Positions 17,548-48,330 of a DNA stretch of 64,000 nucleotides are shown here, piece after piece. How positions within the stretch are numbered: position 1 is the first letter of the stretch; each line of letters begins with the position of its first letter. This DNA is from Rossellomorea sp. AcN35-11. GTDB lineage: Bacteria > Bacillota > Bacilli > Bacillales > Bacillaceae_B. A program made the position numbers and the translations under genes. The stretch spans positions 248,001 to 312,000 of the forward strand of contig CP128836.1 in NCBI GenBank assembly GCA_030388825.1, given 5' to 3'. The notes under the pieces are model-generated. The model made no database searches. It was given only the letters and a program-made list of their open reading frames with translations, and was not told where the DNA came from.

Positions 17548-17693
17548 TCTGATATAATTTTAGACAAATAGCTTTTAATTACTTTTACCTAAAACTTCTC
17601 ATGAGGGAAGTTCACTTTTTTATATAAAGGCACCCATCAAAGTGCTCGAACTGTTATTGCAGAAATTCGAGGATTTTGATGGGTTTTTTTATG
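17548..17693 (+). promoter_or_regulatory. leader RNA D: promoter, AWGM hairpin and two-part terminator
   Basis: Extended -10 TGATATAAT (hexamer 17553-17558). The small hairpin is CTTCTC-ATGA-GGGAAG (17595-17610). The terminator pairs CCCATCAAA (17633-17641) with TTTGATGGG (17675-17683), with inner CTCGAA/TTCGAG, seven Ts and then ATGCCCAAAAAA. The AGAGGAGC ribosome site follows at once. It precedes the ubiquitin-like operon. The wider gap 17401-17721 holds only this and presumed divergent promoter sequence for the minus-strand gene. Confidence 0.75.
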
Positions 17694-17721
17694 CCCAAAA
17701 AATTTCGAGAGGAGCTTAGTT

Positions 17722-18087
17722 ATGAGTATTAACGTAGATGACGTGTGGAGAGAATTATGTACTTATCCAGAAGTGGGAGATAAACAGAAAGAGGAATTGA
17801 AAGTTTATCACACTATTCACTACTCGGCAGCGACAAGATTCGGATCCATCAAAGAGTTTATCTCAGAAGTATCTGAAGAAACCTTAACACAGTGCATAGA
17901 AGAGTTAAACACGATGCCAACCTTGGACGGCGGCGGATATGATGATGTTGAAGAAGAAATTAGTTTCGAGGGCAGGTTTCATCTTCATGGAAATATGTTT
18001 CATGAGTTGCACCGCCTGGATAGTTTTTATATTCACACCTGGGACGCGACTCCAAAAAAGAGCAGGAAGAAACGATCATTCTTTTAA
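17722..18087 (+). CDS. hypothetical protein, first gene of the ubiquitin-like operon
   Basis: A 121-aa acidic soluble protein I do not recognise. It starts behind GAGAGGAGC. The middle has a GGGYDDVEEEISFEGRFH stretch, and the end is basic (KKSRKKRSFF). No membrane segment or catalytic motif is seen. It is followed after 12 nt by the 184-aa gene and shares its leader promoter, so it probably works with the E2/JAMM/E1 set; a substrate or accessory role is only inference. Confidence 0.6.
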   Translation: MSINVDDVWRELCTYPEVGDKQKEELKVYHTIHYSAATRFGSIKEFISEVSEETLTQCIEELNTMPTLDGGGYDDVEEEISFEGRFHLHGNMFHELHRLDSFYIHTWDATPKKSRKKRSFF

Positions 18088-18099
18088 GGAGGAAACCGA

Positions 18100-18654
18100 A
18101 TGTACTTTTCCGCTGAAGGAAGAGAAGAACTGATAGACACACTAGATAGATTATTATTAGCAAAAAAGATGCAAAAGAGAGGAAGATACTTCCCAGATAA
18201 AGAAAGATTCTGGATGCAAAGAAGAAATGCTGACTTAGGTAAACTCGAACAACTTGCCTACACCTTAGAACAGACTATTGATGCCAGAGTGAACATCGAT
18301 TTAGACCAAGAACCACAAGTAGGAAAATATGATGAGGTCTATGTTTTTGATGTCTTCATGAGTGAACTAGATGAATTCAATAATCTCAACAGGAAAACTA
18401 AAAACCAATCAAAATGGAAAGAAGAATTACAAAAAATAATAAAAATAAATCTAGAAGAAGTCCTATCAGATGGATTTATAGATGCTCAAATGAAGGTGGT
18501 ATTAGGAGATATTCCAAATGTGCTCCATGTGAGTATTGAATCAGTTTCTTTCTGTACCACATATACCTTTTTTCAAGGTTTTTTGGATTTCCAAACAGAC
18601 TTAATAAAATTGCTGAAGCAAATCAAGCAAAAGAAGGGAAGAATCAGCGCATGA
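18100..18654 (+). CDS. hypothetical protein of the ubiquitin-like operon
   Basis: A 184-aa protein with an excellent AAGGAGGAAA site. The N-terminal third is helical and basic (LLLAKKMQKRGRYFPDKERFW), the rest mixed, ending in a lysine-rich tail. No known domain recognised. Its stop overlaps the E2-like start (ATGA), so expression of the two is coupled. Confidence 0.6.
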   Translation: MYFSAEGREELIDTLDRLLLAKKMQKRGRYFPDKERFWMQRRNADLGKLEQLAYTLEQTIDARVNIDLDQEPQVGKYDEVYVFDVFMSELDEFNNLNRKTKNQSKWKEELQKIIKINLEEVLSDGFIDAQMKVVLGDIPNVLHVSIESVSFCTTYTFFQGFLDFQTDLIKLLKQIKQKKGRISA

Positions 18655-21600
18655 GTAACGAACTAATGGTACGAATACAAGATTTTGATACTCCTATATC
18701 TGTAAGTAAAATGATAAATGGAGTAGAAGTTGGCAAAAGAGAAGTTCTGGTTGACGATTATATCCGATCTCTCATTGGGAGCCTGAATGACGAAGAGTTA
18801 CTAGGCTACCTAATGCATGAAAACTTCTTGGAAACAGTACAAACCTACCTGACAAGAGAAGTGGATGAGGACATATACAATGAAATCTTCAAATTGTTCA
18901 TCAACAACAGTAATGAATTCACTGATACTGATATCAAAAAGCATGAACAATTCACCAAACTAATCACTATTTTACTTGAGAAGGTTAATGTCAAAGAGGT
19001 TAACGAAAATTTATTAGAGGATTTACTCAAGAACATCTTTTTAAATGTGAAGTCAGCAGACTTAAAAGACATGGCCGCTTACAATAAATTGTTCAGAGTA
19101 TTACTTGAGAAAATAGATATCCATAAAGGGTCAAGTATTGTTATTCGAGATTTCATGAGTCGAATTCTAGATAAAATGAATAACACCAAAAACGAGGAAG
19201 ATTTAAAGGCTATCTTTGATGTGATTGTTGAAAAGGGAGCTAAGAGAGATTGGTTAGAAAAGGTCATAAGTGACAGAAAGCCACACACATCTTTTCAAAA
19301 AACACCAATACTTCCAGCCGGTACAGTATTTTACAAGGAATCGATTGGCGGTTTGAAAACCATCATCATGGAAGTCCCAAAGCATCAAAGAGATGTCGAA
19401 TTCAAACAACTACAATACAAAAGTGTGGGGCATCCAAACCTACTAGTGCGCCCATAAGGGTATGAATCGAAACCAATTTCTTTAAAAGCGGAAATTGCGG
19501 GGGAAAATGGACAACGAAACACCCTGTCATCACGCAACTTACTCATAGGGAAACTGAACCGGGGAGTGTAGCATGTTGCGAAAGCCGAAAGTCACTTAGT
19601 TATCAAGGTGCGACTGAATGGCGAGATGAAACATTACAGACAAGGTTGAAAGCTAAACTGCCTGAACGATAGACAGAAGGGGGAAATTTGGCCCGGATGC
19701 GGAAGATAGCTATAAACGCACTCAAGTACAGGAGGATGTGATGGTAATAGTAGACATCACAGACAAGTTGTTCATCCGTACTTCCTATCTATAATAAATA
19801 GAAAATGTCGAAAGTCGCAACCGACACTGTAAGTAGCTATGTTCATTCATATCTAAATGGGGATTACCTAACCTCAAATGCCATCAATTCTGGCTATGGA
19901 GGATGATTCCAAGTTGAAAAACAAGGAATGTGGCTCCTGAATATTGAGTATGGTAACGGAGCTCTCGTAGTAGTCCGAGAATCCTGAAATGACAGGAATA
20001 GCCGTAAAATCGGAAGCGGGAAAGCCGCTCACATGGCGAAGGGGAGCAGTTTGTCAGCTTAATACGTAACATACATGGAAGGTGTGAGAGACACAATGAG
20101 AGATCCAAACGTAGTATTAGGCAATCTAGCAAAAATGAGCGCTCAAAAAGACTATAAGTTTGACAGATTGTACCGCAATCTCTATAACCTAGAATTCTAT
20201 TCACTAGCATATCAAAACATCTACGCTAATGAAGGCAACATGACTAAGGGAACAGACGGTAACACAATTGACGGAATGTCCATTGAGAAAATAAATGTAC
20301 TAATAGACGCTCTAAAAAACGAAACATATCAACCAAAACCTGCAAAAAGAATATATATCGATAAAAAAAATGGTGGAAAAAGACCTTTAGGAATACCATC
20401 TTTTAACGACAAACTTATCCAGGAAATTATTAGACTAGTTCTCGAAAGCATTTTCGATGGCAATTTCAGTTCAAATTCACACGGGTTTAGAAAGAATCAC
20501 AGTTGTCACACAGCGTTATCACAAATCAAGAACACTTTCGTAGGTGTAAAATGGTTTGTAGAAGGCGATATAAAAAGATGTTTTGATGATATCAATCACC
20601 ACATCCTAATTAAAACTCTCAGAAAAAGAATTATGGATGAAAAATTCCTAAGACTTATTTGGAAGTTTCTTAGAGCGGGTTATCTAGAGGACTGGAAATA
20701 TAACAACACGTATAGTGGTACACCACAAGGTGGTATCATCAGTCCTATATTAGCAAATATCTTCTTAAATGAATTTGATACATTCATGGAGAAGCTGAAA
20801 GATAACTTCGACGAAGGAAAAACAAGAAAAGCAAATCCTGCGTACAGAACATTTGAAGGTAAGATTTATCGCCTAAAGAAAAAAATGACTGCACAATGGG
20901 AAACCGCTGATAACGAAACTAAACAACGTCTTCTCAAAGAACTCCGTGAACTTAAAAAAAATAGAAGAGAACTCTCTTACTCGGACCCGATGGATAGCAA
21001 CTACAAAAGATTACAATATGTAAGATATGCTGACGACTTTATTATTGGTGTAATCGGCAACAAGCAAGAAGCTGAAGAAATTAAGAACAAAGTCGCAGAT
21101 TTCCTATCCAATAAGTTAGACCTTCAACTCTCTAAAGAAAAAACATTAATAACACACAATAGTAAGAGAGCTAAATTCTTAGGGTATGAAATCACCATAA
21201 CTAACGACAACACTCCTAAGAAAGACAAAAACGGGTCAAAAAACAGAGTATTCTCCAATAAACCTGAATTATATATGCCAGGAAAAGCTTGGAAAAACAA
21301 ACTATTTGAACTTGGTGCAGCAAAATTCGACGGAATCAAATTAGTATCTAAACACAGACCGTACCTAATAAGTCTAGATAACCTAGAAATCCTTTCCACG
21401 TACAATGCAGAAATCAGAGGTATGTATAACTACTATAAACTAGCCAGAAATGCAAGTAATTTGCAAAGCTTTAAACACATCCTAGAATACAGTATGTATA
21501 AAACCTTTGCCAACAAGTACAAATCATCTGTACGGAAAGTTGTGAGAAAACACAAAATAGGAAACGAATTCGGGATCAGATATAAGACAAAAGAGGGCGA

Positions 21601-22358
21601 TAAAATAAGATTCTTCTACAACGCTGGATTCAAACGCAACTTAGTACCAGCAACAAGTACCAACGTCGAATTAGTACCGAACACGAACCTTTATCAAGCT
21701 AGGGGTTCTTTAATGGATAGATTAGTCAAAGAAGTTTGTGAATACTGTGGGACAACTGGAGTACCACTAGAAATGCATCATGTCAGAAAGTTAAAAGACC
21801 TTAAAGGTAAGAAAAAATGGGAAGCCATTATGATATATCGTAAACGCAAAACTATGGCACTCTGCAAAGGATGTCACACTGACTTACACGCAGGTAGGTT
21901 AGATTAATCGAAGCTAGATTGGCGAATGGAGAGCCGTATACATCGAGAGGTGTACGTACGGTTCGGGGGGGAGTATTTGGAAACCTATCATAGAAATATG
22001 ACAAGGCGCTGGGTACTTACCCTACTTTGTATACCAAGTATCAGGCAAGCAGATACAAAACATGATGATCTTTGCAAAGGATTCAAAACCACTATCTGAA
22101 GAATCACAGTTGTACCATTATCCATTTGCACATGTTTATGAAAATGGTAAGGTGTGCTGGGGTTTTCGCAATGAAGTAATTAATACTTTAGCCCAACTAA
22201 GGATATTAACTAGAGTATTTTTAGATACTCCGAACAATCATGATTTAGCTAGAGAAGGGTCTGTAGAAAGATTAGTTAAATTACAAAGAAAAGAATTCGA
22301 AGATAATTTGTTAGAACCTACCATTCTCACATTTGAGAAACTAGTAGATTTAATATAA
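18651..22358 (+). CDS. E2-like protein (PRTRC protein B / Prok-E2 type), split by a group II intron
   Basis: Exon 1 is 18651-19445 and exon 2 is 22035-22358; together they encode 372 aa. Exon 1 ends after GHPNLL; a GTGCG intron start follows. Exon 2 opens in frame with QVSGKQIQNMMIFAKD after an intron ending in AC. The C-terminal part, SQLYHYPFAHVYENGKVCWG, is the conserved block I know from PRTRC protein B, an E2-fold family; C306 there is the candidate catalytic cysteine and lies in exon 2. The N-terminal 200 residues are helical and unassigned. Without splicing the product stops at RP* just inside the intron and lacks that cysteine. Neighbours encode a ubiquitin-like protein, JAMM protease and E1. 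Confidence 0.7.
19446..22034 (+). mobile_element. group II intron 1, inserted in the E2-like gene
   Basis: Begins GTGCGCCCATAAGGG, the classic 5' end of a bacterial group II intron, and ends ...TATAC just before an in-frame exon (AY 3' rule). Domain V is the 34-nt hairpin at 21931-21964, GAGCCGTA ... TACGGTTC, with a GAGA-type loop. Domain VI lies between there and 22034. The ribozyme core (19446-20070) is non-coding. It carries one maturase ORF. Insertion is on the coding strand in phase 0, so splicing can restore the host gene. Confidence 0.88.
20096..21907 (+). CDS. group II intron reverse transcriptase/maturase with HNH nuclease
   Basis: About 603 aa. RT blocks are present: KRPLGIPSFNDKLIQE, SHGFRKNHSCHTAL, GTPQGGIISPILANIFLNE and the catalytic YADD in VRYADDFIIG. 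A thumb/maturase domain follows. An HNH endonuclease with paired cysteines (CEYCGTTG, LEMHH, CKGCH) closes the protein. It would aid splicing and retrohoming of intron 1. The ATG at 20096 has GGAAGGTGTGAG upstream; an in-frame ATG at 20075 is the alternative. Confidence 0.9.
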   Translation: MRDPNVVLGNLAKMSAQKDYKFDRLYRNLYNLEFYSLAYQNIYANEGNMTKGTDGNTIDGMSIEKINVLIDALKNETYQPKPAKRIYIDKKNGGKRPLGIPSFNDKLIQEIIRLVLESIFDGNFSSNSHGFRKNHSCHTALSQIKNTFVGVKWFVEGDIKRCFDDINHHILIKTLRKRIMDEKFLRLIWKFLRAGYLEDWKYNNTYSGTPQGGIISPILANIFLNEFDTFMEKLKDNFDEGKTRKANPAYRTFEGKIYRLKKKMTAQWETADNETKQRLLKELRELKKNRRELSYSDPMDSNYKRLQYVRYADDFIIGVIGNKQEAEEIKNKVADFLSNKLDLQLSKEKTLITHNSKRAKFLGYEITITNDNTPKKDKNGSKNRVFSNKPELYMPGKAWKNKLFELGAAKFDGIKLVSKHRPYLISLDNLEILSTYNAEIRGMYNYYKLARNASNLQSFKHILEYSMYKTFANKYKSSVRKVVRKHKIGNEFGIRYKTKEGDKIRFFYNAGFKRNLVPATSTNVELVPNTNLYQARGSLMDRLVKEVCEYCGTTGVPLEMHHVRKLKDLKGKKKWEAIMIYRKRKTMALCKGCHTDLHAGRLD

Positions 22359-22393
22359 TTCTAAAATTAATCACACAAGGGAGAGAGTTAACT

Positions 22394-22768
22394 ATGACAA
22401 CAGAAATGAACAAAAAACAAATCGATTTATTCGGAGATATCTACGGGGAAGATTCAGAAATTACAAAGTCTATTACTAAAAAGCCAGCCACACCAAAACC
22501 AGCAGCTATTCCTACTATGCCAAAAGTTGAACCGAAACCACCAGTAAAGGTACACGGCGATTGGAAAGCGGACTTTTACGGGAATGTATTTGATGTCATT
22601 GATTACGTTGAAGAAATTCCTGAAGAAGGCATTGAAGTAGAGGAACTTCGTAAAGAAATGCAAAAAGATTTCTTTGGCCTTTCAAAAGAACGTGCTTATT
22701 GGGAAATTGATGAAGAAAATAAATATATCTTCTTATTTCAAAAAGGCACTTCCAAAGGAGCTCTATAA
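22394..22768 (+). CDS. ubiquitin-like protein (PRTRC protein C / Prok_Ub type) with N-terminal clamp motif
   Basis: A 124-aa protein. Residues 9-13 are QIDLF, a sliding-clamp-binding peptide. A proline-rich linker spans about 30-52. The C-terminal 65 residues (FDVIDYVEEIPEEGIEVEEL onward, then EENKYIFLFQKGTSKG) follow the layout of PRTRC protein C, a short beta-grasp family that ends ...YxFxxxxGTKG. The chain ends GTSKGAL, so a short tail after a glycine could be trimmed by the JAMM protease encoded next. Start behind GGGAGAGAG. Assignment rests on pattern and context. Confidence 0.6.
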   Translation: MTTEMNKKQIDLFGDIYGEDSEITKSITKKPATPKPAAIPTMPKVEPKPPVKVHGDWKADFYGNVFDVIDYVEEIPEEGIEVEELRKEMQKDFFGLSKERAYWEIDEENKYIFLFQKGTSKGAL

Positions 22769-26400: not shown

Positions 26401-27289
26401 GAGATTCTTAATCGGGTAACCCGTAATGGTTACCAAGATACTATAGCTAGAGCAGCTTAGTTGGGCTCTCATAGCTAACTCCTATTGATGGAGAGCCGGA
26501 TGCATCGAAAGGTGCCCGTCCGGTTCGAGGAGGGGGGAAAAGCACGAGCTTACCTATCCTCAGAGGCAGGTTTAAACCGTATCGTTCATTCGATACGGTG
26601 AAACTGCCCAATTGTCTAATCAACTATTTGATCATGAAGATATCGGAGATTATAAAGTCACTGCCCTTGCAGAAAGATACGGTCATCACTATGGATTAGA
26701 GGTCAAGGAAGTACAAGACTACATTACAAATCAAGATACTTTACACCGCCTATACACCCCACTTACAGTGAATGAGGAAGTTCAAGTCCTACCAGTGCTT
26801 ATCTCAATGGTAGATAATAACGCAACAAGGAAAATATTTGATGAATTCTTTTACTCTGACTACCTACCAGACCTAGTATATTTAGATGCCGGAGTTGAAG
26901 GAGTTTCTTTAGATAACTCCTTATCTACACAAGAAAAAGAGTGCACAGGTTTTTCAGGACAAGTTTGCACAGGATTAAAAATGAGTGGAGAAGTTTGGCT
27001 TGAACCTGTAATGAGGGTATATCCAGATATGTGGGAAGATGAAGACCATTTACCAGAGCAATCTTGTGGTGAAGCGATCGTAAACAACCCACAACGGTGC
27101 CAGACGAATAAAATGGCAGCCACTCTAGCAAACGGTGTTATGAATAATCTTCTGCACAACAATACTATTTATGTACATCATGTAGATTTTAATGCTCAAT
27201 TCGGAGGGAGTAGACCAACTTTTATAAAATCTAAGTTAATTAGAGAATATAATTCAACCGTATTAAAAGCAGAACAAAACAACCGGTGA
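23421..27289 (+). CDS. E1/ThiF-like adenylating protein, split by a group II intron
   Basis: Exon 1 is 23421-23619 and exon 2 is 26613-27289; joined they encode 291 aa. Residues 18-30 hold the ATP loop VVIVGAGANGSHF and D58/D60 the next acidic pair (LVDKDKVE). The splice restores a leucine codon (T|TG) to give VEMKNLSNQLFDHEDIGDYK, the N-L-x-x-Q block of E1 enzymes. The arginine normally before that Gln is asparagine here. PEQSCGEAIVNNPQRCQTNK holds the candidate catalytic cysteines. The intron sits exactly in the ATP-site motif, so unspliced product (stop at 23649) is inactive. Start has AAGGAGAG. Confidence 0.75.
23620..26612 (+). mobile_element. group II intron 2, inserted in the E1-like gene
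   Basis: Starts GTGCGTCAGGCATGCG and ends ...GCCCAAT (AY). Domain V is at 26493-26526, GAGCCGGA ... TCCGGTTC, with a GAAA loop. The structured non-coding core (23620-24470) is about 850 nt. It is clearly different from intron 1 in 5' sequence, domain V and encoded protein, so the two were acquired separately. It lies in phase 1 of the E1 frame on the coding strand. Confidence 0.88.
24473..26377 (+). CDS. group II intron reverse transcriptase/maturase with HNH nuclease
   Basis: 634 aa from the ATG at 24473 (site GAGGTGG); a GTG 9 nt earlier is possible. RT blocks: GLRPLGIPTMMDRIIQE, SYGFRPYRAQEHAI, GTPQGGVLSPLLANIYLND and the catalytic FADD of TRFADDWVIQ. A group II maturase domain follows. 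The HNH region has CCQACGEKL, WSCHHKEP and CTICHEL. Of LtrA-like architecture, more so than the intron 1 protein. Confidence 0.9.
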   Translation: MRVKNTIQNEQQLKETLDELYAMSKEGKSFTGLLELITNEQTIVSAVHKLKANSGSKTPGMDGKTIEHYLQMKYEQLIGLVRYHFRNYKPRPVLRKYIEKDNGGLRPLGIPTMMDRIIQECIRLVLEPICEAQFYPYSYGFRPYRAQEHAIARIVDLQNMDRKWTIEGDIKGYFDNVDHGILLHKIRKMGIIDKRVIAIINKMLKSGFYENGVVVATPKGTPQGGVLSPLLANIYLNDFDWTVARMWQDPKIGDKFANEGNARRYLKRTKGNSPTFLTRFADDWVIQCAEEDDCKRLLSYLNKYFRHKLKLELSEEKTVITNAGEEPIKFLGFNIALQKRSGPAGKDKPKQIVAKNYPQTKKLLKQWNECKRLIDSAFMQPNEDKMALKIEELNMKIVGIAEYWKCGTSKKMLTKLDHLINYRFYIKGRKKWKNRVLEHFIPIHQLTNRPGRHHLDTKGKPLVRITKTWAVKVDDQWIGVTKASITPIVYAKKFGAKLTPYTPEGRKLREKVGKKPPNSRAPLYNAFQLYAARFEKDDKHNFEFIMNREYAFNQTWRASKGYCCQACGEKLIKGKWSCHHKEPNLPLEEVNKVKNLTFLCTICHELIEYGIREGTILNTRHKNKITKLIALRNK

Positions 27290-30795: not shown

Positions 30796-30929
30796 TGTTA
30801 TAATAAAATCATATAGTACTCATAACTTATATTTAAAATACTTTTCAAGAGAAAAGTATCCAAAGCGCCGATTCAAGTGCTCGAGCTGATTTATTCAGAA
30901 TGACGAGTTTTTGAATGGGCGTTTTTTTT
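30796..30929 (+). promoter_or_regulatory. leader RNA F: promoter, AWGM hairpin and two-part terminator
   Basis: Extended -10 TGTTATAAT (hexamer 30799-30804). The small hairpin is a 9-bp perfect stem ATACTTTTC-AAGA-GAAAAGTAT (30838-30859). The terminator pairs GCGCC...ATTCAA (30865-30875) with TTGAAT...GGGCG (30911-30921), with inner CTCG/CGAG and CTGA/TCAG steps, eight Ts and then GATCCCAAAAAA. It shares the GTGCTCGA loop sequence with leader D. Confidence 0.75.
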
Positions 30930-33885: not shown

Positions 33886-34024
33886 TGCGGAGAAAGGGTT
33901 ATTCGGGCGCTGCCTACAGTATTTATCGCGCGCATTTAAGGAAGAAGATCTTGGAGTCCAATTCCTTTACGGATCCTTATAGGTAGTTTCCGTCTGGCAA
34001 GTTCAAGTCTTGCCTCCGCAACCA
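33886..34024 (+). ncRNA. tRNA-like RNA with encoded CCA and an enlarged body
   Basis: TGCGGAG (33886-33892) pairs perfectly with CTCCGCA (34014-34020); A and an encoded CCA follow (34021-34024). The T-arm is canonical: GCAAG-TTCAAGT-CTTGC (33997-34013), matching TTCRANY. The ~104 nt between acceptor and T-arm do not fold into normal D and anticodon arms. They can form hairpins GCGC/GCGC (about 33907-33931), AAGGAA/TTCCTT (33938-33967) and ACGGA/TCCGT (33969-33993). At 139 nt it is too long for a tRNA and too short for tmRNA, and no tag ORF is seen. Function unknown. Confidence 0.65.
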
Positions 34025-34077: not shown

Positions 34078-34087
34078 TTATGTATAT

Positions 34088-34234
34088 GATAAAATAAATA
34101 TAAATCACCATATAAGTATATAAATTCACTCTCCTCGACTTAGGCAGAAGGGGATATCGATATTCAAAAGCATCAAATCAGGTGCTCAAACTATGAAAAG
34201 AAAGAAGTTTGAGAATCAGATTTGGTGTTTTTTT
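34088..34234 (+). promoter_or_regulatory. leader RNA G upstream of the DndC-like gene
   Basis: Extended -10 TGATAAAAT near 34088. The two-part terminator pairs CATCAAATC (34171-34179) with GATTTGGTG (34219-34227), inner CTCAAACT/AGTTTGAG, seven Ts and then ATGCCAAAAAACA. It shares GTGCTCAAACT with leader D. A pyrimidine-rich segment with AGGCAGAAGGGG lies where the small hairpin should be, but no clean AWGM tetraloop is visible. Confidence 0.65.
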
Positions 34235-34315: not shown

Positions 34316-36298
34316 ATGAAAAACTTGATAGAATTTATACAATCTAAAGGAGGGAAGCCCTCTTTGCTTAGAAATTGTTGGCAGAGGGGGAACCCTTTTC
34401 TGTCTCCTAAGCAAACGGCGAGCAATATGAGTAAAGAACAAAAGAGAATAGAACAAGCAGCATCAGATACTAGATGGTTTACAAATCCAGAAAGAGAAAT
34501 GAGAAGGTTTCAAATTCTAATTGAACGAATGAAAAGGGTATACTTACAGGACACCAATGATTGGATTGTAGCTTTTTCTAGCGGAAAAGACTCAAGTTTG
34601 ACTTTAGATTTAACCTTCAAAATGCTCGAAAATTTAAAACCTGAACAACGAAATAAATCAATCCATGTTGTGTCAGCAGATACTCAAGTGGAAACTCCGC
34701 AAATGGTATCTTTTTTGAGAAAGAACCTAAACCTTATTAAGAAAAAAGGAAAGGGACTAGGCATTAAAGTTCACTATGTTGTTCCAGAAATGAAAGAGAA
34801 CTACTGGTGGAACATTATTGGCCGTGGTAACCCCGCACCAACGCCAAAATCGCCCTTTTCCTGGTGTTCCAAAAAATTGAAATTACAGCCAATGTCTCGG
34901 AAGCTAAAGGAAATTAACAGATTACAGGAAGTAGGGATGTTTGGAGAAAATATCCCTTATGATACAACACTGTTGTTAGGTGTAAGGAATGCCGAGAGCG
35001 CAAAACGAAAACGATCTATTAAGAAACATTCACTAGATAATTATTTTGCTCGTCACCATGACATTGACAGCATCCGGGTATTCCATCCTGTTAAATTCAT
35101 AAAGGACGCAGACTTGTGGAATTACATCCATTATAATCAAGAATTGGCATGGGGATTACCTTCCATGGAACTTTGGAAGATGTATTCTGAGGGGCAAGAA
35201 GAATGCGCAATCGTTCGTACCGAGAAGGACAAATCATGCGGAGCATCCTCTTCAAGATCTGGTTGCTGGACCTGCCTTTACAGTCCGAGAGAGGATCCAA
35301 TGCTTGAAATCCTAATAAAAGCCGGGAATGAAAATATCAATTACCTAAGTGATTGGAAGAAATTCCTCTTCGACGTTAAGTTTGACGTTCGTTATAGGGA
35401 GCCACTTCGCAGGGATATTTATAAAGAGCGTTTAAAGGGAAAGGTGATTGACCTATTTTCTGCAAGCGATTTTTATTACAATCATTACCAACGCGCTGAA
35501 AAAGGAGAGGAAGGAGCATACAAACCCGGTTCTTACACATTTGAACTGCGGGTAATGCTTCTAGAAAAACTTTTATATGCCCAAGAAAAGTCCGGATACC
35601 TCTTAATTACTGATGAAGAGTATAAAGCAGTATTACAGTGTTGGAGAGAAGACGGATACGATGTAGACTCACTAAATATTCAACCCAGAAATCATCAGCA
35701 TGATGGAGCGGTTGTACTTAAACCAGATTGGAGACTAGTGACAAGCGGATCAGACAACCCAAGACCTAATCCTAATCCTGTGTTTTACGTTCCTGTTGAG
35801 TTTCAGTTCGAGGGAAGAGAATTAGTATCTTTTGTACAAGAACGACAACGACTTACCGGAAAAAGTATCTTTTGTTACTTTGATTATGAAGAACACGAAA
35901 ACATTAGATTAGTTAACAATAAATTAGTCTTTATTGTGTGTGAGAAAGATATCCAATCACAAGAAGAGGCAAAACAAAAGGTTATGAATTATTTATTTAT
36001 CGAAGGAACCAAAGAATCGACAGGAACAGATGGAGAACCTTATCAAAGCATGCAAGGGAAATCCTTTGACGCTGCTTTACAGCATATCCTATTGGACTCA
36101 CTGAAACCAACGATCAATCGCTTAAGCAATAAGGAGGAGGAACTTAGTAAATTCAATGAAAAAGACACAAAAACAGTTGTGTTCATGCACCAAATCCTCG
36201 GAAATATAAAAAAAGAAAAGCAAGCACAGGAAGATACCAAGAAAATCCATACTATATCACCGAGTCAACGAGTACCAAAGCAGATGTGCCTATTTTAA
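34316..36298 (+). CDS. DndC-like PP-loop sulfurtransferase with C-terminal clamp motif
   Basis: A 660-aa protein. The PP-loop is SSGKDS (88-93, in WIVAFSSGKDSSLTLDL). RGNPAPTPKSPFSWCSKKLK, LLLGVRNAES and CGASSSRSGCWTC match DndC, which provides cysteine-derived sulfur for DNA phosphorothioation and carries an Fe-S cluster. It is about 150 aa longer than DndC, and ends KQMCLF, a clamp-binding peptide. No dndB, D or E lies in the window. The start is uncertain: ATG 34316 has no ribosome site; a TTG at 34364 follows AAAGGAGGG with good spacing; ATG 34427 is internal. Confidence 0.7.
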   Translation: MKNLIEFIQSKGGKPSLLRNCWQRGNPFLSPKQTASNMSKEQKRIEQAASDTRWFTNPEREMRRFQILIERMKRVYLQDTNDWIVAFSSGKDSSLTLDLTFKMLENLKPEQRNKSIHVVSADTQVETPQMVSFLRKNLNLIKKKGKGLGIKVHYVVPEMKENYWWNIIGRGNPAPTPKSPFSWCSKKLKLQPMSRKLKEINRLQEVGMFGENIPYDTTLLLGVRNAESAKRKRSIKKHSLDNYFARHHDIDSIRVFHPVKFIKDADLWNYIHYNQELAWGLPSMELWKMYSEGQEECAIVRTEKDKSCGASSSRSGCWTCLYSPREDPMLEILIKAGNENINYLSDWKKFLFDVKFDVRYREPLRRDIYKERLKGKVIDLFSASDFYYNHYQRAEKGEEGAYKPGSYTFELRVMLLEKLLYAQEKSGYLLITDEEYKAVLQCWREDGYDVDSLNIQPRNHQHDGAVVLKPDWRLVTSGSDNPRPNPNPVFYVPVEFQFEGRELVSFVQERQRLTGKSIFCYFDYEEHENIRLVNNKLVFIVCEKDIQSQEEAKQKVMNYLFIEGTKESTGTDGEPYQSMQGKSFDAALQHILLDSLKPTINRLSNKEEELSKFNEKDTKTVVFMHQILGNIKKEKQAQEDTKKIHTISPSQRVPKQMCLF

Positions 36299-37570: not shown

Positions 37571-37716
37571 AAAAAAACACTTCCTCAAAGGATAGAAATT
37601 TCTGATGAAATCAGAATAATCCCCAGACGAAGTGTCGGTTTTAATAATTAGTAAGTCAATTACGCTTGTAAAAGACATATGAAAATATTAGAAACAGTAT
37701 ATATATTTATTTTAGC
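37571..37716 (-). promoter_or_regulatory. minus-strand leader RNA: promoter, AWGM hairpin and two-part terminator
   Basis: Read on the minus strand: extended -10 TGCTAAAAT (hexamer 37709-37714), then 38 nt later TTAC-AAGC-GTAA (37660-37671). ACACTTC pairs with GAAGTGT around an inner TTCTGA/TCAGAA hairpin, followed by seven Ts and TTACACAAGGAGGAG. The same order as the plus-strand leaders on the opposite strand supports a real element. Confidence 0.75.
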
Positions 37717-37755
37717 ATATTAGTCATAGGTTTTGTTACTAAAACTCACCCTGTC

Positions 37756-37900
37756 TGCTATAATTAATAGTATATTCATTTAATGCCATACATTTATTTG
37801 TCCATGAGGACGAATCCACCAAAATTTAAAATGACTCAATCTGAGTTACCAATTTACAAAAAATCTTGGTATTTCAGATTGGGTTATTTTATTTTCCCAA
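37756..37900 (+). promoter_or_regulatory. leader RNA H: promoter, AWGM hairpin and two-part terminator (ligA)
   Basis: Extended -10 TGCTATAAT (hexamer 37759-37764). Small hairpin GTCC-ATGA-GGAC (37800-37811). Terminator-like hairpin AATCTGA/TCAGATT with inner ACCAA/TTGGT, then TTATTTTATTTTCCCAAAAC and the ligA site GAGGAG. Divergent from the minus-strand leader; together they fill 37547-37926. Confidence 0.75.
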
Positions 37901-39965: not shown

Positions 39966-40002
39966 AAATATGATTCTAAAACTTATGAAGGCGGGTATTT
40001 AA

Positions 40003-40992: not shown

Positions 40993-40997
40993 AAGTT

Positions 40998-41560: not shown

Positions 41561-41568
41561 CCAAAGTA

Positions 41569-41698
41569 TGATAAAATATATTTTATAGATGTTACTTAAT
41601 TTTAAATTTTTCCCCTTCCAAGAGGAAGGTATTGAAACGCCTAGTTGAAAGGTTAAACATTCTAGTTTTCTAGAAGAAACTTTCTCTAGGTGTTTTTT
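41569..41698 (+). promoter_or_regulatory. leader RNA I: promoter, AWGM hairpin and two-part terminator
   Basis: Extended -10 TGATAAAAT (hexamer 41572-41577). Small hairpin CCTTCC-AAGA-GGAAGG (41614-41629). Terminator AACGCCTAG (41636-41644) with CTAGGTGTT (41686-41694), inner TTCTAG-TTTT-CTAGAA, six Ts. Precedes the 98-aa QMDLF protein. Confidence 0.75.
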
Positions 41699-41757
41699 GT
41701 TGTCTAATTTTAATTTAGTAACCCTACTATTATATTCACATTTAAGGAGAGATAACG

Positions 41758-42054
41758 ATGCCAGCACAAGCGAAGAAATATGAATATGACCAGATGGACC
41801 TCTTTGAATTTGCTTTAACAGAGGAGGAACCAGTAGTTAAAACACCAATGGAAACCACATTTGGAGAATCAGAAGGTGCACAAGTAGAACAGAAAGATAA
41901 TATAGAACAAAAGTACAGAAAAGGTGCATCTATCTATTATAGAGGAGAAGCGGGTGTTTACTTGAATCCGTATTCGAATGATCATAAAACCTCTACGATA
42001 AAGATAGGAGAGTCACACATCGTTGTTTTAACATCAGCGATTGAAGAAAGGTAA
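41758..42054 (+). CDS. small protein with N-terminal clamp-binding motif
   Basis: 98 aa behind AAGGAGAGA. Residues 12-16 are QMDLF, followed by an acidic low-complexity linker and a C-terminal 45-residue beta-rich part (GASIYYRGEAGVYLNPY ... HIVVLTSAIEE). No catalytic motif. It could be a clamp adaptor or competitor; this is inference from the motif alone. Confidence 0.6.
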   Translation: MPAQAKKYEYDQMDLFEFALTEEEPVVKTPMETTFGESEGAQVEQKDNIEQKYRKGASIYYRGEAGVYLNPYSNDHKTSTIKIGESHIVVLTSAIEER

Positions 42055-42076
42055 ACCCCGAAATTCGGGGTTTCTT
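42055..42076 (+). terminator. intrinsic terminator
   Basis: AACCCCGAA and TTCGGGGTT form a tight stem, then TCTTT. It ends the 98-aa gene, and the dnaX leader promoter follows within 30 nt. Confidence 0.75.
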
Positions 42077-42104
42077 TATGTTAATGGTAATCAATAATGA
42101 CCGG

Positions 42105-42275
42105 TGATATAATAAATATATATATTTATTTAATTAATTTAAATTTACTTCTAAGCAGGGGGAAATTAATTTTAAAAAACACTCTAATTAAACGAGTGAT
42201 CACAGCTGCTAAAATGCAGAAACGGCAATTCGCTGCTAGTGTTCATTCCTTTAATTAGGGTGTTTTTTTGTACCC
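42105..42275 (+). promoter_or_regulatory. leader RNA J: promoter, AWGM hairpin and two-part terminator (dnaX)
   Basis: Extended -10 TGATATAAT (hexamer 42108-42113). Small hairpin CTTCT-AAGC-AGGGG (42148-42161), extended by AATTT/AAATT. The terminator pairs ACACTCTAATTAAA (42179-42192) with TTTAATTAGGGTGT (42250-42263), a larger branched inner part (42193-42249), seven Ts, then GTACCCTAAAAAATA. The 140 nt from here to dnaX hold an AAAAAGGAGTG site opening only GTG AGG AGT TAG, plus open but start-less frames. Confidence 0.7.
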
Positions 42276-42417
42276 TAAAAAATAAAAAGGAGTGAGAAAG
42301 TGAGGAGTTAGAGGTACTTATTGTATCCATGCCAGATGCAAGAGGGTTACACTAAAACCAATAAACCTGGCAGAAATTTTTGAGAATACAAAAAAAGAGA
42401 TGAAGGAGAGAGTAAAC

Positions 42418-44373: not shown

Positions 44374-44388
44374 GTTGGAGGGAATAAA

Positions 44389-45372
44389 ATGAGTTGGAAT
44401 AAGATAGAAGACAAACAACCTAAAGTGACAAGAATCGTAAAAAACAGCATTACAAACGATAGAATCTCTCACGGATATCTCTTCAAAGGTGGTAAAGGGG
44501 TAGGTAAGGAAGAAATCGCCATACACTTTATTAAGCGATTTTTTTGCAAATCTCCAAATGGTGCCGAGCCTTGTGGTGTTTGCGAACATTGCAAAAGGAT
44601 TAAATCTGAAAATGTTCATCCAGATTTCCATATTGTTCGACCAGATGGCAATTCAATTAAAATTGATCAAATAAGAGAACTTCAAAAGGAATTTAATTGG
44701 AAGTCTGTTGAGGGAGAGAAAAAAGCGTATCTTATAGTGGATGCTGAAAAGATGACCACTCAATCCGCGAATGGATTGCTTAAGTTTTTGGAAGAACCTA
44801 GCCAAAACACTCTCGCCATCCTTTTAACAACACAACCTCAGAGAATATTGACAACCATTAAGTCACGGTGTCAAGAAATTGCTTTCCAACCCTTAAAATC
44901 TTCAGCTCTAGTTGAAGAACTAGAATCAGAGGGAGTAGACAAAACATTAGGGATGGTAGTATCTCAACTAACTAATGACTTTGAAAAAGCAACCGAGTTA
45001 GTAAATGATGAATGGTTTCTTAAATCACTTTCAATCGTCAAACAACTAACCAATGAAATTTACAATAACCCTGATAATGCCGTCTTTATGGTACAAGGAG
45101 AGTGGATAAAACACTTTAAAGAAAAAGAACAACAACACATGGGACTTGAGCTTTTACTCCTATGGTATCGCGACATTCAAATGTATCAACTGGACAAGGA
45201 ACTAATCTTTGTAAATGAAAAAGTACAAATCGAGATCCAAAACATCGAATTAGCTACTTTGTATGAGATTATGAATGATGTTATTCAAGCAAAAGGTAAA
45301 TTATATAGTAATTCCAATCACCAAATGGTGATGGAACAGCTTGTTTTTTCTATAACTTCAAAAGTTTTATAA
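44389..45372 (+). CDS. holB: DNA polymerase III delta-prime subunit
   Basis: A 327-aa clamp-loader subunit. It has a P-loop-like GGKGVGKEE (34-42), zinc-site cysteines (C53, then EPCGVCEHC), AYLIVDAEKMTTQSANGLLKFLEEP and the SRC motif in TTIKSRCQEI. Start behind TTGGAGGG, 16 nt after dnaX. The usual chromosomal holB neighbours are missing, so this is an element-specific clamp-loader operon. Confidence 0.88.
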   Translation: MSWNKIEDKQPKVTRIVKNSITNDRISHGYLFKGGKGVGKEEIAIHFIKRFFCKSPNGAEPCGVCEHCKRIKSENVHPDFHIVRPDGNSIKIDQIRELQKEFNWKSVEGEKKAYLIVDAEKMTTQSANGLLKFLEEPSQNTLAILLTTQPQRILTTIKSRCQEIAFQPLKSSALVEELESEGVDKTLGMVVSQLTNDFEKATELVNDEWFLKSLSIVKQLTNEIYNNPDNAVFMVQGEWIKHFKEKEQQHMGLELLLLWYRDIQMYQLDKELIFVNEKVQIEIQNIELATLYEIMNDVIQAKGKLYSNSNHQMVMEQLVFSITSKVL

Positions 45373-45373
45373 T

Positions 45374-45411
45374 CCAACAAGGAGGGGTAAACAACCTCTC
45401 CTTGTTTTGTT
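45374..45411 (+). terminator. intrinsic terminator after holB
   Basis: AACAAGGAGGGG pairs with CCTCTCCTTGTT around TAAACAA, followed by TTGTTTG. It separates the clamp loader from the clamp transcript. Confidence 0.75.
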
Positions 45412-45433
45412 TGTATTCATTAGTAAAAACAGG

Positions 45434-45569
45434 TAGAATAATAATATATCCATTTTAATCTTAAGATACTATTTTGCTCATGCGAGTGAATAATAACCTT
45501 GTTATGAAAACGCCTTTGGGTGACTATTGCATTTTTACATGCGAATAGCACCTAGAGGCGTTTTTTTAT
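45434..45569 (+). promoter_or_regulatory. leader RNA K: promoter, AWGM hairpin and two-part terminator (clamp gene)
   Basis: -10 TAGAAT (45434-45439) or the overlapping TAATAAT. Small hairpin TTTGCTC-ATGC-GAGTGAA (45473-45490). The terminator pairs AACGCCTTTGGGTG with CACCTAGAGGCGTT around CTATTGCAT...ATGCGAATAG, seven Ts. The clamp gene ribosome site AAGGAGAGAG follows. Confidence 0.72.
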
Positions 45570-45602
45570 ATATCCATTTTTAAATATTAAGGAGAGAGAG
45601 TA

Positions 45603-46799
45603 ATGAAAACAATCACAAAAGGAGCAACTATCAATTCAGAGGTACTACAAGAAATAGGAAAAGTATTTGGTAAGGTAGCGGATAAGAAAGGATTAAGAGA
45701 TAATAATCTTTATTTATCCGAAAAGGAAGGTAAACAAAGTTTCTATCTGAGTGGTTCCGACATCAGTGTAGAAAGAACAATTCCTCTTGAGAGTGGGGTT
45801 CCGATTTCAACTGTTGTTCCAACTAAGGAATTTCGTCATAAAGTAGGAATTACTCCAAATAACACAGAAATCACTTTAATGGAGGCTAACAGTAAATTGT
45901 ATTTCACCTGGGGCAAGGGAGCGAAATTAAGAGTACCACACTGCAACGAGCAGATCCCTTTATTGTCCATCCCTGAAATCTCAGATTGGATCGAATGGAA
46001 GCCCGGTACATTACATGAGGTAACAAGAGAATTCATGGAATTTTCGTGCCAAGAGAGTGATGAACGCGCTGACAGAGAACCCGTTTACACTGGAGTTAAT
46101 TTTCAAAGAGACTCAGAATTCAATGAAACATACATCCGTGCTACAGACAAAAGAAAAGCAGCATCGATGTCTAAAGAAATTAATTGGTTTAATAAAACAA
46201 TTACAATATCTACAACAACATTAGTTGCAGTAGCAGAAATTATTTCAGCTGAAAAGTCTATTCAGGTTGGAATAAATGATGAAGCGACACTTATCGTTTT
46301 TAAAACTAGCGATACAGTGGTGCTTTCTAGAGTGCTTGACGGACAGTTCAACAATGCCGCCATAGACAAGGTGTTTACTCTTGCACCATCAATGGCAGAA
46401 ACATGGTACCGAGTGGACCTTGCAGACATTGAAAATGCTTGTTACAGAGCTATTAAACTCGCGCCTACATCACGATTAATCAAAATCTTTAGTGATGGAA
46501 GTGAAGTTTTATATCAGGCAGGTCAAAATGTACACCTTCCTAAAGAAGGAAGAGATGAAGAGGATTTGATCGAGCCAATCGGAGGTGTAGTCGATAGCGT
46601 AAAAGGTGTGGTTAAACCTATCATTGTTGATGCAGCAAACCTTTTAGCAGCAACAAAATTATTTAAAATGGATAGTACACCTGAAATCACCTTATTGACT
46701 GCTTTACCTAACGAAAGCCGACCAGGGCCCGGACCAGTTACAGTTATTGATGAAGATAATCAAGCAGCGCAAGCGCTAATCGGACAAATTAGGCATTGA
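45603..46799 (+). CDS. divergent DNA polymerase sliding clamp (DnaN-like)
   Basis: A 398-aa protein. Overall identity to chromosomal DnaN is low, but the clamp landmarks occur in order: IPLESGVPISTVVPTKEFRHKV in domain I, the domain II segment INWFNKTITISTTTLVAVAEI, DGQFNNAAIDKVF in the position of the L-x-G-x-F-P element, PIIVDAANLLAATKLFK and a final strand region. Length is near the usual 370-380. Its place right after dnaX and holB and under the same leader type supports the call. It is the expected receptor for the Q-[IM]-x-L-F peptides in neighbours. Confidence 0.62.
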   Translation: MKTITKGATINSEVLQEIGKVFGKVADKKGLRDNNLYLSEKEGKQSFYLSGSDISVERTIPLESGVPISTVVPTKEFRHKVGITPNNTEITLMEANSKLYFTWGKGAKLRVPHCNEQIPLLSIPEISDWIEWKPGTLHEVTREFMEFSCQESDERADREPVYTGVNFQRDSEFNETYIRATDKRKAASMSKEINWFNKTITISTTTLVAVAEIISAEKSIQVGINDEATLIVFKTSDTVVLSRVLDGQFNNAAIDKVFTLAPSMAETWYRVDLADIENACYRAIKLAPTSRLIKIFSDGSEVLYQAGQNVHLPKEGRDEEDLIEPIGGVVDSVKGVVKPIIVDAANLLAATKLFKMDSTPEITLLTALPNESRPGPGPVTVIDEDNQAAQALIGQIRH

Positions 46800-46814
46800 A
46801 TATGAAGGTAAGAG

Positions 46815-46853
46815 AGGCTTTACGATCAAGAAGTATCGTAGAGCCTTTTTTTA
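46815..46853 (+). terminator. intrinsic terminator after the clamp gene
   Basis: AGGCTTTACGAT and ATCGTAGAGCCT pair with one mismatch, followed by seven Ts. Confidence 0.82.
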
Positions 46854-46947
46854 ATTCAATATGCAATACGAAATTTGACAGCCATCAATATGAAAAAAAA
46901 AACTAAGGAAACAAACTATCTTAACGTAAAGGAATGGAGGATTATAA

Positions 46948-48045
46948 GTGGGAATAAATTATAACAAGGACCGCAAAAAGATTACTATAGATTGGGATGA
47001 AAAACAAAAGAACGAAGTAAAGCATTGGCATGCAGAGTTTACACCAATAAATATATTCTTCCACCCGAAAAGAAAAACACAACTTATAAGAGTTACCTTA
47101 GAGGGGAAGATCCCGAAATGGGTAGAACGGTTCGCATCTACTATTAAGTTCAAATTTGGGATTACATCTGATAATAATGGAAAACAAGGTTTCTGGTTGG
47201 CGAATTGGAATGCATGGGAAAGCGGTGAATTTCCTATAACCTATACCAACCTAGACGGAGCTATACAACAACTCATAAAGAAAATTCCAGATGATCTGAA
47301 ACCATTAAAGGAAAGAATAAAGAGCGGGAAATCAATAATTAAGGAAAACCTCTTTAACAGAACTAGTTTTTTTGAAAGGTTAGGGATATATTACAGACCC
47401 GAAGAACTCCATGGCAATTGCGGGACACTTTTATTCGGAAATAATATCTTCCCGGATAAAGAAAAATGGACAGATGAAGAATACGCAGGAATCTTAGAGA
47501 ATGATGGCAAACTAGAAAAAATAATTGGGGAACTAACAACATCTATTGCAGATAGAACAGACGCTGAACAACAAGAGGGGGACTCAGAGTACAATCCTCT
47601 TCATTATGAAGTACTCCAGTTAGAGGAACTTGGTGATATTAAACTAGAAGAGTATTATGAGGAAATTCAAGAAGCACAACTTTCAGAGACTTCAGTTGAA
47701 ATAAAATTAAATGAAAACTGTGCTGAATTGATACCTAATGAGGACTATACCCTCTTTAATTCAGATACCTTATCTGAATTAAATTTATTAGAATCTGAAA
47801 TACCTGAAGAGAGAGGTATTTCATTCTTGAATACAAATAAACCAAGAGGAATAGAGGAGGGACACGACAAAGAATATTCGAAACACACAGAAGTATTAAA
47901 AAAGGACGTGGGTTTGGAATCTGATAAAGGAAAGGCAGATTCATTTTTCATATTAAATAAAGAAAACGAATCAGTTATAAGTAAAAACAAAAAGAATAAA
48001 AGACGGAAAAAGCCTTTAGAACAAGAAACAATTCCTCTATTTTAA
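46948..48045 (+). CDS. hypothetical protein with disordered tail ending in IPLF
   Basis: 365 aa from a GTG behind AATGGAGG. The N-terminal 140 residues are folded and basic (VKHWHAEFTPINIFFHPKRK, NNGKQGFWLANWNAWESGEF). The second half is acidic and disordered, then basic (KNKKNKRRKKP), ending QETIPLF. That end is a relaxed form of the clamp-binding peptide. No family recognised; position next to the clamp gene hints at a replication role. Confidence 0.55.
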   Translation: MGINYNKDRKKITIDWDEKQKNEVKHWHAEFTPINIFFHPKRKTQLIRVTLEGKIPKWVERFASTIKFKFGITSDNNGKQGFWLANWNAWESGEFPITYTNLDGAIQQLIKKIPDDLKPLKERIKSGKSIIKENLFNRTSFFERLGIYYRPEELHGNCGTLLFGNNIFPDKEKWTDEEYAGILENDGKLEKIIGELTTSIADRTDAEQQEGDSEYNPLHYEVLQLEELGDIKLEEYYEEIQEAQLSETSVEIKLNENCAELIPNEDYTLFNSDTLSELNLLESEIPEERGISFLNTNKPRGIEEGHDKEYSKHTEVLKKDVGLESDKGKADSFFILNKENESVISKNKKNKRRKKPLEQETIPLF

Positions 48046-48050
48046 AGAAA

Positions 48051-48082
48051 GAGACCTCCTTCCATTAGGTAAGGGAGGTCTC
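48051..48082 (+). terminator. terminator-like stem without U-run
   Basis: GAGACCTCC (48051-48059) pairs with GGAGGTCTC (48074-48082). No T-run follows, so termination is doubtful; it may protect the 3' end. Confidence 0.5.
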
Positions 48083-48111
48083 AAGTATAATTGAAAAAAT
48101 TCATTTCAGAG

Positions 48112-48330
48112 TGATATAATTATCATATATATTATATAAGTTAATCATACATTCTTACTCATGAGGGTAGGAAAATTCAAAAATAAGCAGTCAATTGACT
48201 GATTACATACTAATAAAAGTAAACCATAGTTGTAACAACTATGATTTTTTAATGTCCAAAACCCAAATAAAGGGAGTATAGACACAATAAATGTGTTTTA
48301 CTCATCTTTATTTGGTTTTTTTATATAAAA
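48112..48330 (+). promoter_or_regulatory. leader RNA L: promoter, AWGM hairpin and two terminators
   Basis: TTGAAA and extended -10 TGATATAAT (hexamer 48115-48120). Small hairpin CTTACTC-ATGA-GGGTAGG (48154-48171). First terminator AACCATAGTTG/CAACTATGATT with six Ts then AATGTCCAAAACC; second hairpin ACCCAAATAAAG/CTTTATTTGGT with seven Ts. Two serial terminators before the 341-aa gene make this the most heavily gated leader. It fills the 48083-48361 gap. Confidence 0.75.

Follow-up and report, generated by a model that had tools for sequence, protein, structure and literature searches.

A recurrent leader RNA in a Bacillales megaplasmid lineage: a putative dual-hairpin transcription attenuator with a loop code that differs between plasmids

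Introduction

Why should many separate genes of a large plasmid, on both of its strands, each be preceded by a leader of the same build? The question is raised by a stretch of 64,000 nucleotides from Rossellomorea sp. AcN35-11 (the window), which comprises bases 248,001–312,000 of contig C2 (CP128836.1; 628,214 bases) in a genome of 4.8 Mb that consists of two contigs and includes a chromosome of 4.19 Mb. In an earlier note, made from the letters of this window alone, eight such units were described, and processive antitermination or attenuation by an element-encoded regulator were offered as explanations. The underlying claim of a conserved RNA element ahead of many genes, which works via termination, is well supported by the analysis presented here. 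With respect to its mode of action we consider it probable, at roughly 60%, that the leader is a dual-hairpin transcription attenuator, in which a plasmid-encoded RNA-binding factor at the first hairpin (P1) would promote read-through.

The window encodes a DNA ligase, a 5'-3' exonuclease, DnaX, delta', a divergent clamp-like protein (Pfam score 25.5 bits versus a cut-off of 27) and a pilin of a type IV secretion system (T4SS). We take C2 to belong to a megaplasmid lineage, since relatives of the clamp-like protein at E ≤ 1e-5 are located on nine Bacillales plasmids of 156–392 kb (PLSDB), with none in the phage collection at the same threshold, and since among the genomes of 199 relatives the protein was found in its own genome only. 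A single-protein scan of genome contigs with the clamp and a scan of viral contigs with a VirB4-like alignment each returned no relative. The first five related plasmids used for comparison are P. polymyxa pPPM1a (W01), Sporosarcina pSP10-266k (W02), A. pseudofirmus pBpOF4-01 (W03) and plasmids of Peribacillus asahii (W04) and L. sphaericus (W05). Further plasmids originate from L. irui (W07) and Lysinibacillus fusiformis (pG5.M11b_1, W18; pHJ.T1, W19), eight others (W09–W16) carry a distant version of the C2-type T4SS and W17 is another distant plasmid.

Anatomy and covariation of the leader

The eight units of the earlier note (D, F, one on the minus strand, H, I, J, K and L) were all read at the claimed places, and a ninth, unit G (34087–34234), lies outside its list (Table 1). 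The parts of the leader follow in the order promoter, P1, two-part terminator and gene. The two-part terminator with its long hairpin is as the note had described it, except that a second hairpin (P2) within its 5' foot had been overlooked. P1 combines a short upper stem, often with a 1x1 mismatch beneath, with a Y-R closing pair and a tetraloop that is mostly A-N-R-M, which in relatives is recognized by eye in hairpins such as GCC-AUGC-GGC, CCC-ACGC-GGG and ACC-AAGC-GGU.

The covariation of the P1 stem that had been claimed is evident in 18 aligned hairpins, where 85.4% of cells pair compared to 61.1 ± 2.8% after shuffling, with a covariation score of 0.761 versus 0.262 ± 0.041 for shuffled and at most 0.224 for slid versions. 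In a set of 64 sequences the score amounts to 0.774 versus 0.236 ± 0.019. Since the first 18 hairpins were chosen by the motif CA[ACT]G[AC]G, the constancy of their loop is by construction. The loop was judged from a loop-blind scan, which required a -10 element, a hairpin with a four-base loop, a terminator and P2, and in which the proposed constant loop holds for W02–W05, with C-AHG[CA]-G in 41 of 41 leaders (a duplicated W05 segment entering twice), but not throughout C2, where the features shared by all 16 loops are a G at position 3 followed by A or C at position 4. The extended -10 sequence TGNTAWAAT as a signature on its own is at chance level (15 found, 12.4 ± 3.7 expected), and unit K carries TAGAAT without the TG. 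The distance from the start of the -10 to the loop has a median of 44 nucleotides (5–95% range 40–48, among -10 elements sought at 38–54 nucleotides), where the earlier note had given 30–38 nucleotides to the hairpin.

On C2, a second P1 subclass has a closing pair U-A instead of C-G (L113 4099, L114 1308, L111 9647, L209 15913 and window 42144–42165), and some loops start with a base other than A, perhaps indicating two overlapping codes on one plasmid. At 37571–37890 of the window, two adjoining leaders on opposite strands point away from each other. Comparable divergent arrangements occur on W05 (115693/115821), W07 (183261/183358) and W19 (64406/64505), and on W05 the two leaders lie ahead of the 5'-3' exonuclease gene and of a gene homologous to the minus-strand gene of the window.

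Distribution of the leaders

Two covariance models were searched, R1 built from the 18 hairpins aligned without gaps and R2 from the 64 sequences. R2 recovers all eight units of the note, six of which belong to its training set, the other two being unit J (42095, E 0.8) and the minus-strand unit (37643, E 0.05); unit J is absent from the R1 matches at E ≤ 5. In the own genome, where R1 scored 150 of 1,304 and R2 150 of 2,988 first-look candidates, R1 found nine matches at E ≤ 0.68, all on C2 and six of them from training, and one further match on C2 at E 9.4. R2 found 11 matches at E ≤ 1, again all on C2 and three of them outside training. The earlier note had asked whether chromosomal matches are as frequent as those on the element; the four R1 matches on the 4.19-Mb chromosome (E 1.8–9.6) are at chance level.

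On plasmid stretches of C2 and its relatives, R1 obtained 72 matches, including the 18 of its training set. Among the remaining 54, a strong terminator follows downstream in 50, a -10 is found at the right distance in 50 and both are present in 46. For matches of at least 25 bits these values rise to 39/39 for the terminator and 37/39 for both, compared to 201 (terminator), 273 (-10) and 25 (both) at 2,000 random positions. In total, 68 of the 72 matches have an intrinsic terminator that separates the hairpin from the first gene, and the four that lack it (W03 213196 and 16517; W02 143320 and 142134) look false. Related Bacillales megaplasmids contain between one and 30 model matches each, among them W06 with one, W07 with nine and W08 with two R2 matches. 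A piecewise R2 scan of C2 gave 30 matches at E ≤ 5, of which the 20 inspected are mostly leaders by eye. Under strict filters, R2 found no match at E ≤ 1 on the plasmids with a distant T4SS (W09–W16) or in four other genomes, and one weak match (E 0.95) on W17; genome G027 seems to contain the 138,020-base plasmid of W09. In an order-wide R2 scan of 397 genomes, with 11 candidates scored per genome, only two leaders of the own genome were listed.

A further sample was provided by fresh loci drawn via a VirB4-like protein and blind to leaders. Here the ten matches of R2 fall in nine of the 15 loci from close relatives, with none in the 13 distant loci, and R1 found 12 matches at E ≤ 1, one of them in a distant locus. 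One more close locus, the sixteenth, proved to be W03 and was excluded; L165 and L176 are near each other, L172 is near W01, and two (L168 and L177) of the six close loci that lack a match cover only about 2 kb upstream. The loop-blind scan identified 60 leaders on six plasmids, and none on three distant plasmids (W13 in part) or on reversed sequences. When P2 was not required, it returned 82 leaders compared to eight on reversed sequences. In the material searched, the leaders are restricted to one plasmid lineage. The notion that they arose by chance, or as a by-product of A+T-rich promoters and ordinary terminators, could appeal to the chance-level frequency of TGNTAWAAT; in light of the covariation, the chromosomal and distant-plasmid results, the fresh loci and the empty null of the loop-blind scan once P2 is required, its probability is negligible.

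A second hairpin within the terminator

An antiterminator located upstream of the terminator was considered and rejected, as the stretch of RNA from the start to the terminator pairs with the 5' arm of the latter less than shuffled sequence (0.165 versus 0.258), with pairing above shuffled in only nine of 62 leaders. This set contains the 72 matches except for the four without terminator and six with duplicate, short or ill-placed terminators. Since upstream RNA pairs so poorly with it, the arm itself was inspected, and P2 was found there. The terminator folds show a recurrent R-R-G-Y-G in the 5' arm, with GTG in 40 of 60 leaders compared to 87 of 481 other terminators. This motif forms the 3' half of P2, and the foot of the same arm supplies the 5' half, as in CACUU-UUUA-AAGUG, CGCUC-AUCU-GAGUG and CGCC-UUUG-GGUG. 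P2 shares the arm with the terminator and the two hairpins are therefore mutually exclusive.

A P2 score of at least 10 is reached by 47 of 62 leaders, by 60 of 257 other terminators on those plasmids (selected more strictly than the 481) and by eight of 62 mirrored arms. Swapping partner arms among leaders reduces the mean score from 10.48 to 7.61 ± 0.40, and swapping within plasmids to 7.88 ± 0.38, with the real value reached in none of 1,000 swaps in either case, which reflects covariation of the two halves. The P2 loops vary in sequence and in length (3–9 nucleotides). Within the window, P2 has 4–7 base pairs by eye in units D, F, G, H, I, J and K (with low automatic scores for D and I) and three in L, while the minus-strand unit has at most a weak one; P2 is also recognized by eye in fresh loci, as in CGCC-UAUU-GGCG and CACC-UUU-GGUG. 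The median energy amounts to -3.1 kcal/mol for P2 (53 hairpins of at least 4 base pairs) and to -29.2 kcal/mol for the terminators.

Between the two mechanisms offered in the earlier note, the sequence favours attenuation over processive antitermination, since a hairpin that excludes the terminator, P2, forms part of the terminator's own 5' arm. In the attenuator that we propose, P1 near the 5' end would be the recognition site, and P2 would use the 5' arm of the terminator, which it would block while standing. Unaided, the terminator (about -29 kcal/mol) would beat P2 (about -3 kcal/mol) and the gene would be off. A plasmid-encoded RNA-binding factor that reads the P1 loop would maintain the P2 state, by acting on either the RNA being made or the polymerase, so that read-through would occur jointly into the replication genes and others of the plasmid. 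We infer that it is a protein that reads P1 and that its binding promotes read-through, and the same holds for whatever the factor may sense. The opposite sign of control, with a plasmid-encoded repressor that reads P1 and promotes termination, for example in a feedback on replication genes, and with P2 forming in time and genes on when the repressor is missing, is also compatible with the anatomy. Several of the leader-preceded genes serve replication, and negative feedback is common for replication genes. This alternative is nevertheless quite unlikely, as the sequence contains no sign that P1 would aid the terminator, P1 and P2 do not overlap and the terminator, even unaided, greatly exceeds P2 in stability.

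A loop code that differs between plasmids

The loop of P1 differs between plasmids. In a comparison of 61 leaders from five plasmids, with 11 matches excluded that include all five from W01, the likeness of the upper P1 hairpin is 0.722 within and 0.630 between plasmids, a difference found in none of 300 permutations, whereas the -10 region is without such a tendency. On W02, the upper hairpin is A.CCC-AHGC-GGG.A in 11 of 11 cases. The L. irui plasmid has a terminator by eye in 12 of its 13 R2 matches and the loop A-N-A-C in all 12. The same loop is found in five of five matches on L. fusiformis pG5.M11b_1, whereas 15 of 16 matches on L. fusiformis pHJ.T1 have A-H-G-[CA], the sixteenth being without terminator, so that the count is 15 of 15 for those with one.

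Because two plasmids of L. fusiformis use different loop codes, the reader of P1 is probably plasmid-encoded, although the two strains differ and a strain-borne host gene could in principle still account for the difference. It would also be protein-like, since the freely varying loop position 2 favours a protein over an antisense RNA. The claim of an element-encoded regulator is in this respect probably correct, even though the regulator searches described below came up empty. By contrast, the proposal that RNA alone, as in the put version of the earlier note, or a host factor reads P1 appears highly improbable. It has a precedent in put of phage HK022, where the antitermination factor is RNA and not protein according to the available part of PMC8955417. 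Two codes in one species would hardly be demanded by a host factor or bare RNA polymerase, the different loops extend to all detected leaders of the two plasmids, and the own chromosome is without leaders above chance. The L. fusiformis pair constitutes a natural experiment for identifying the reader, which would be expected to move together with the plasmid and to have one specificity on pG5.M11b_1 and another on pHJ.T1.

Candidate readers of P1

Searches for known regulator families were directed at the plasmids and the own genome. PF02357 (NusG) has one match in the own genome, which is chromosomal, and phmmer with this NusG found none in 1,818 open reading frames (ORFs) of the plasmids (W02–W05 whole, W01 and C2 in part). 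The NusG paralogue or LoaP-like factor on the element that the earlier note had envisaged was thus not found, which leaves its LoaP version unsupported. ANTAR (PF03861) is not detected at E ≤ 1 on W01–W05, and its two matches in the own genome, both chromosomal, remain at 12.5 and 12.1 bits under the cut-off of 27.3. CAT_RBD (PF03123) is not detected at E ≤ 1 on W01–W05 and W07, with two chromosomal matches in the own genome, and NusB is found on the chromosome only and on none of the plasmids searched.

These results also bear on a LoaP-like or lambda-N-like mode of processive antitermination, where a P1-bound factor would ride the polymerase past this and later terminators and P2 would be incidental. 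A LoaP leader has the same order of parts, with a hairpin, a NusA-dependent terminator and a gene (available part of PMC12691694), and unit L contains a second terminator-like hairpin in series. We consider such a mechanism unlikely, as P2 is enriched and covaries, which is unnecessary for a polymerase-riding factor, and as neither a NusG paralogue nor NusB was found on the plasmids searched.

A conserved plasmid protein of 112 residues was considered as regulator and rejected, since it is found on six plasmids but was not detected in leader-bearing W18. A weak, though the best, candidate for the P1 reader is an S1-domain protein (C2 144631; W05 88139), which is present on all seven leader-bearing plasmids compared (W18, W07, C2 and W02–W05) and is the sole product recognized as RNA-binding in the list of shared proteins, part of which was covered by family searches. 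Of 15 records with at least 34% identity, ten were scanned, and each contains at least one leader match (W06 one, W08 two). Counting against this candidate, distant homologues are located on plasmids without detected leaders, and its neighbours are conjugation-type genes, so that it may serve transfer.

Relation to known systems

The comparison with published systems follows the available parts of the cited articles. The architecture matches that of the ANTAR leaders (targets of EutV, NasR and AmiR; PMC3369931), in which a first hairpin is followed by another that sits at the 5' base of the terminator and excludes it, and several of which are under one regulator per genome. The plasmid leaders share the exclusive second hairpin and the presence of several leaders per genome. 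In contrast to the ANTAR hairpins, which both have hexanucleotide loops with A1 and G4, P1 has a tetraloop and the loops of P2 are unconserved. The different loops and the missing ANTAR domain on the plasmids searched disfavour membership in this family. The LoaP/dfn leader of Bacillus velezensis (PMC12691694), where a UNCG-type hairpin is read by a NusG paralogue, resembles ours in its promoter, small tetraloop hairpin and intrinsic terminator ahead of the first gene, whereas the plasmid leaders have A-H-G-M or A-N-A-C loops, no NusG paralogue that was found, a P2 and copies at many separate genes. With conAn of pLS20-type conjugative plasmids, a bipartite system in which ConAn1 protein and conAn2 RNA act at the beginning of a single long operon for conjugation (PMC8955417), they share RNA-based antitermination on Gram-positive plasmids, but they are short, numerous and located at replication and other genes, a comparison made by description. 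Finally, the RAT of BglG/Sac-type systems is a single protein-stabilized hairpin overlapping the 5' arm of the terminator (PMC3369931), as P2 does, whereas in the plasmid leaders the conserved recognition hairpin is separate and CAT_RBD was not found on six plasmids.

Rfam contains no match inside a leader when the whole window is searched at E ≤ 1, and at gathering score only group II introns were found in L011–L015. In open-licence PMC text, no description of this leader was found by title or start of abstract. We therefore rate the recognition code and the plasmid-wide scale as new and dual-hairpin termination control as known.

Weighing the attenuator

Several observations weigh against the proposed attenuator. 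The direction of control is not readable from the sequence, and the plasmid searches for ANTAR, NusG-paralogue, BglG-type and NusB proteins gave no regulator of P1. Likeness within plasmids is also higher in the lower stem (0.469 versus 0.409 and 0.416 versus 0.353) and in the spacer (0.346 versus 0.303; 0/300 permutations each), and since these regions show it too, less strongly, part of it may stem from composition or duplication. P2 may be dispensable in some leaders, as its score is below 10 in 15 of 62 and it is weak in units I, L and the minus-strand unit of the window. The C2 loops conform to AHGM in only ten of 16 cases of the loop-blind scan, and the spacing between P1 and terminator varies from 14 to 42 nucleotides. 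Concerning distribution, four Paenibacillus fresh loci with 10 kb upstream each are without R2 match, and one weak R1 match resides in a distant locus (L193, E 0.34). Both models were trained on G at loop position 3 and could miss leaders with other loops, and related sequences are non-independent events.

Genes behind the leaders

By position, leaders in the window precede ligA (unit H), dnaX-holB (J) and the clamp-like gene (K), as the earlier note had stated. Its assignment of the ubiquitin-like operon is less secure: the genes (22062 onward) lie downstream of unit D, but behind a group II intron gene, so that a single operon is a candidate only. A leader precedes the clamp gene on C2, W01, W02, W03 and W05, and on W04 a clamp-like fragment of 138 residues at 231,233, where the other clamp-like ORF (195,564) is without. 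The gene of a DnaG-like primase is leader-preceded on all five of W01–W05, and the homologue on C2 (192,291) has no R2 match nearby at E ≤ 5. Further leader-preceded genes encode ligase and DnaX-HolB (C2), DnaX (W03), a 5'-3' exonuclease (W05), DNA polymerase III delta (W02 and C2), JAB/ThiF operons (W02–W05), an NYN-domain protein (W03 and W05) and several other products.

It is a tentative suggestion, with somewhat less than an even chance, that a Bacillales megaplasmid lineage would run much of its gene set, including replisome parts, as one termination-controlled regulon via the P1-P2 leader, that its reader would be an RNA-binding protein of a family not known as antiterminator and that its preference for G or A at loop position 3 would have switched in concert at all detected sites of a plasmid. 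Different plasmid lineages would then maintain private RNA codes inside one host species. If so, the control of replication, ubiquitin-like and other genes by one factor acting on termination would be an unusual form of plasmid self-government, apart from host promoters. The leader pattern is usable as a search tool for the plasmid lineage and for co-regulated genes.

The family of the 341-residue gene has leaders at 48112–48322 of the window, W03 130194, W04 195400, L165 6104, L169 5979, L171 5559 and L178 5723. The stretch from P1 to the main terminator is long in C2 (95 nucleotides), W03 (103), W04 (77) and several fresh loci, and short in W02 (27) and W01 (36).

Features of the window

Table 1. 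Positions of leader parts within the window (numbering of the 64,000-nucleotide stretch; P2 given as 5' half, loop and 3' half).
Unit	Feature	Position	Strand	Remark
D	-10	17553..17558	+	TATAAT, extended (TGATATAAT)
D	P1	17593..17612	+	loop ATGA, 8 bp, -7.5 kcal/mol
D	P2	17630..17645	+	GCAC-CCATCAAA-GTGC, 4 bp by eye; automatic score low (later terminator start used)
D	two-part terminator	17631..17690	+	then 121-residue gene at 17722
F	-10	30799..30804	+	
F	P1	30838..30859	+	loop AAGA
F	P2	30864..30881	+	AGCGC-CGATTCAA-GTGCT
F	two-part terminator	30865..30929	+	
G	-10	34090..34095	+	
G	P1-like hairpin, non-canonical	34130..34154	+	TCTCCTCGACTTAGGCAGAAGGGGA, without AHGM loop; by eye
G	P2	34169..34186	+	AGCATC-AAATCA-GGTGCT; by eye
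G	two-part terminator	34170..34234	+	upstream of PAPS-reductase-like gene at 34316
minus	-10	37709..37714	-	TAAAAT
minus	P1	37656..37675	-	loop AAGC, weak (-2.1 kcal/mol)
minus	two-part terminator	37571..37635	-	P2 weak or absent; gene next, start 37546, end 36482
H	-10	37759..37764	+	
H	P1	37797..37814	+	loop ATGA
H	P2	37832..37848	+	TGACTCA-ATC-TGAGTTA, 7 bp
H	two-part terminator	37830..37890	+	then ligA (37927)
I	-10	41572..41577	+	TAAAAT
I	P1	41614..41629	+	loop AAGA
I	P2	41639..41653	+	4 bp, weak
I	two-part terminator	41636..41698	+	then 98-residue gene at 41758
J	-10	42108..42113	+	
J	P1	42144..42165	+	loop AAGC, closing pair U-A
J	P2	42180..42198	+	CACTC-TAATTAAAC-GAGTG; by eye
J	two-part terminator	42178..42269	+	upstream of dnaX-holB (42400)
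K	-10	45434..45439	+	TAGAAT, without TG
K	P1	45470..45492	+	loop ATGC
K	P2	45511..45522	+	CGCC-TTTG-GGTG
K	two-part terminator	45509..45567	+	then clamp-like gene (45603)
L	-10	48115..48120	+	
L	P1	48152..48173	+	loop ATGA
L	additional terminator-like hairpin	48225..48243	+	between P1 and main terminator
L	P2	48262..48274	+	CCC-AAATAAA-GGG, 3 bp, weak
L	two-part terminator	48260..48322	+	then 341-residue gene (48362)

Two further features of the window lie apart from the leaders. A group II intron reverse transcriptase (20075–21904) and two domain-V matches (21929–22025 and 26491–26563) are found near the ubiquitin-like genes. At 33887–34024, a segment of about 138 nucleotides, which received no name from ARAGORN or from Rfam at E ≤ 1, has tRNA-like ends, with a T-arm-like GGCAAGTTCAAGTCTTGCC followed by CTCCGC, which could pair with an upstream GCGGAG, and then by AACCA.

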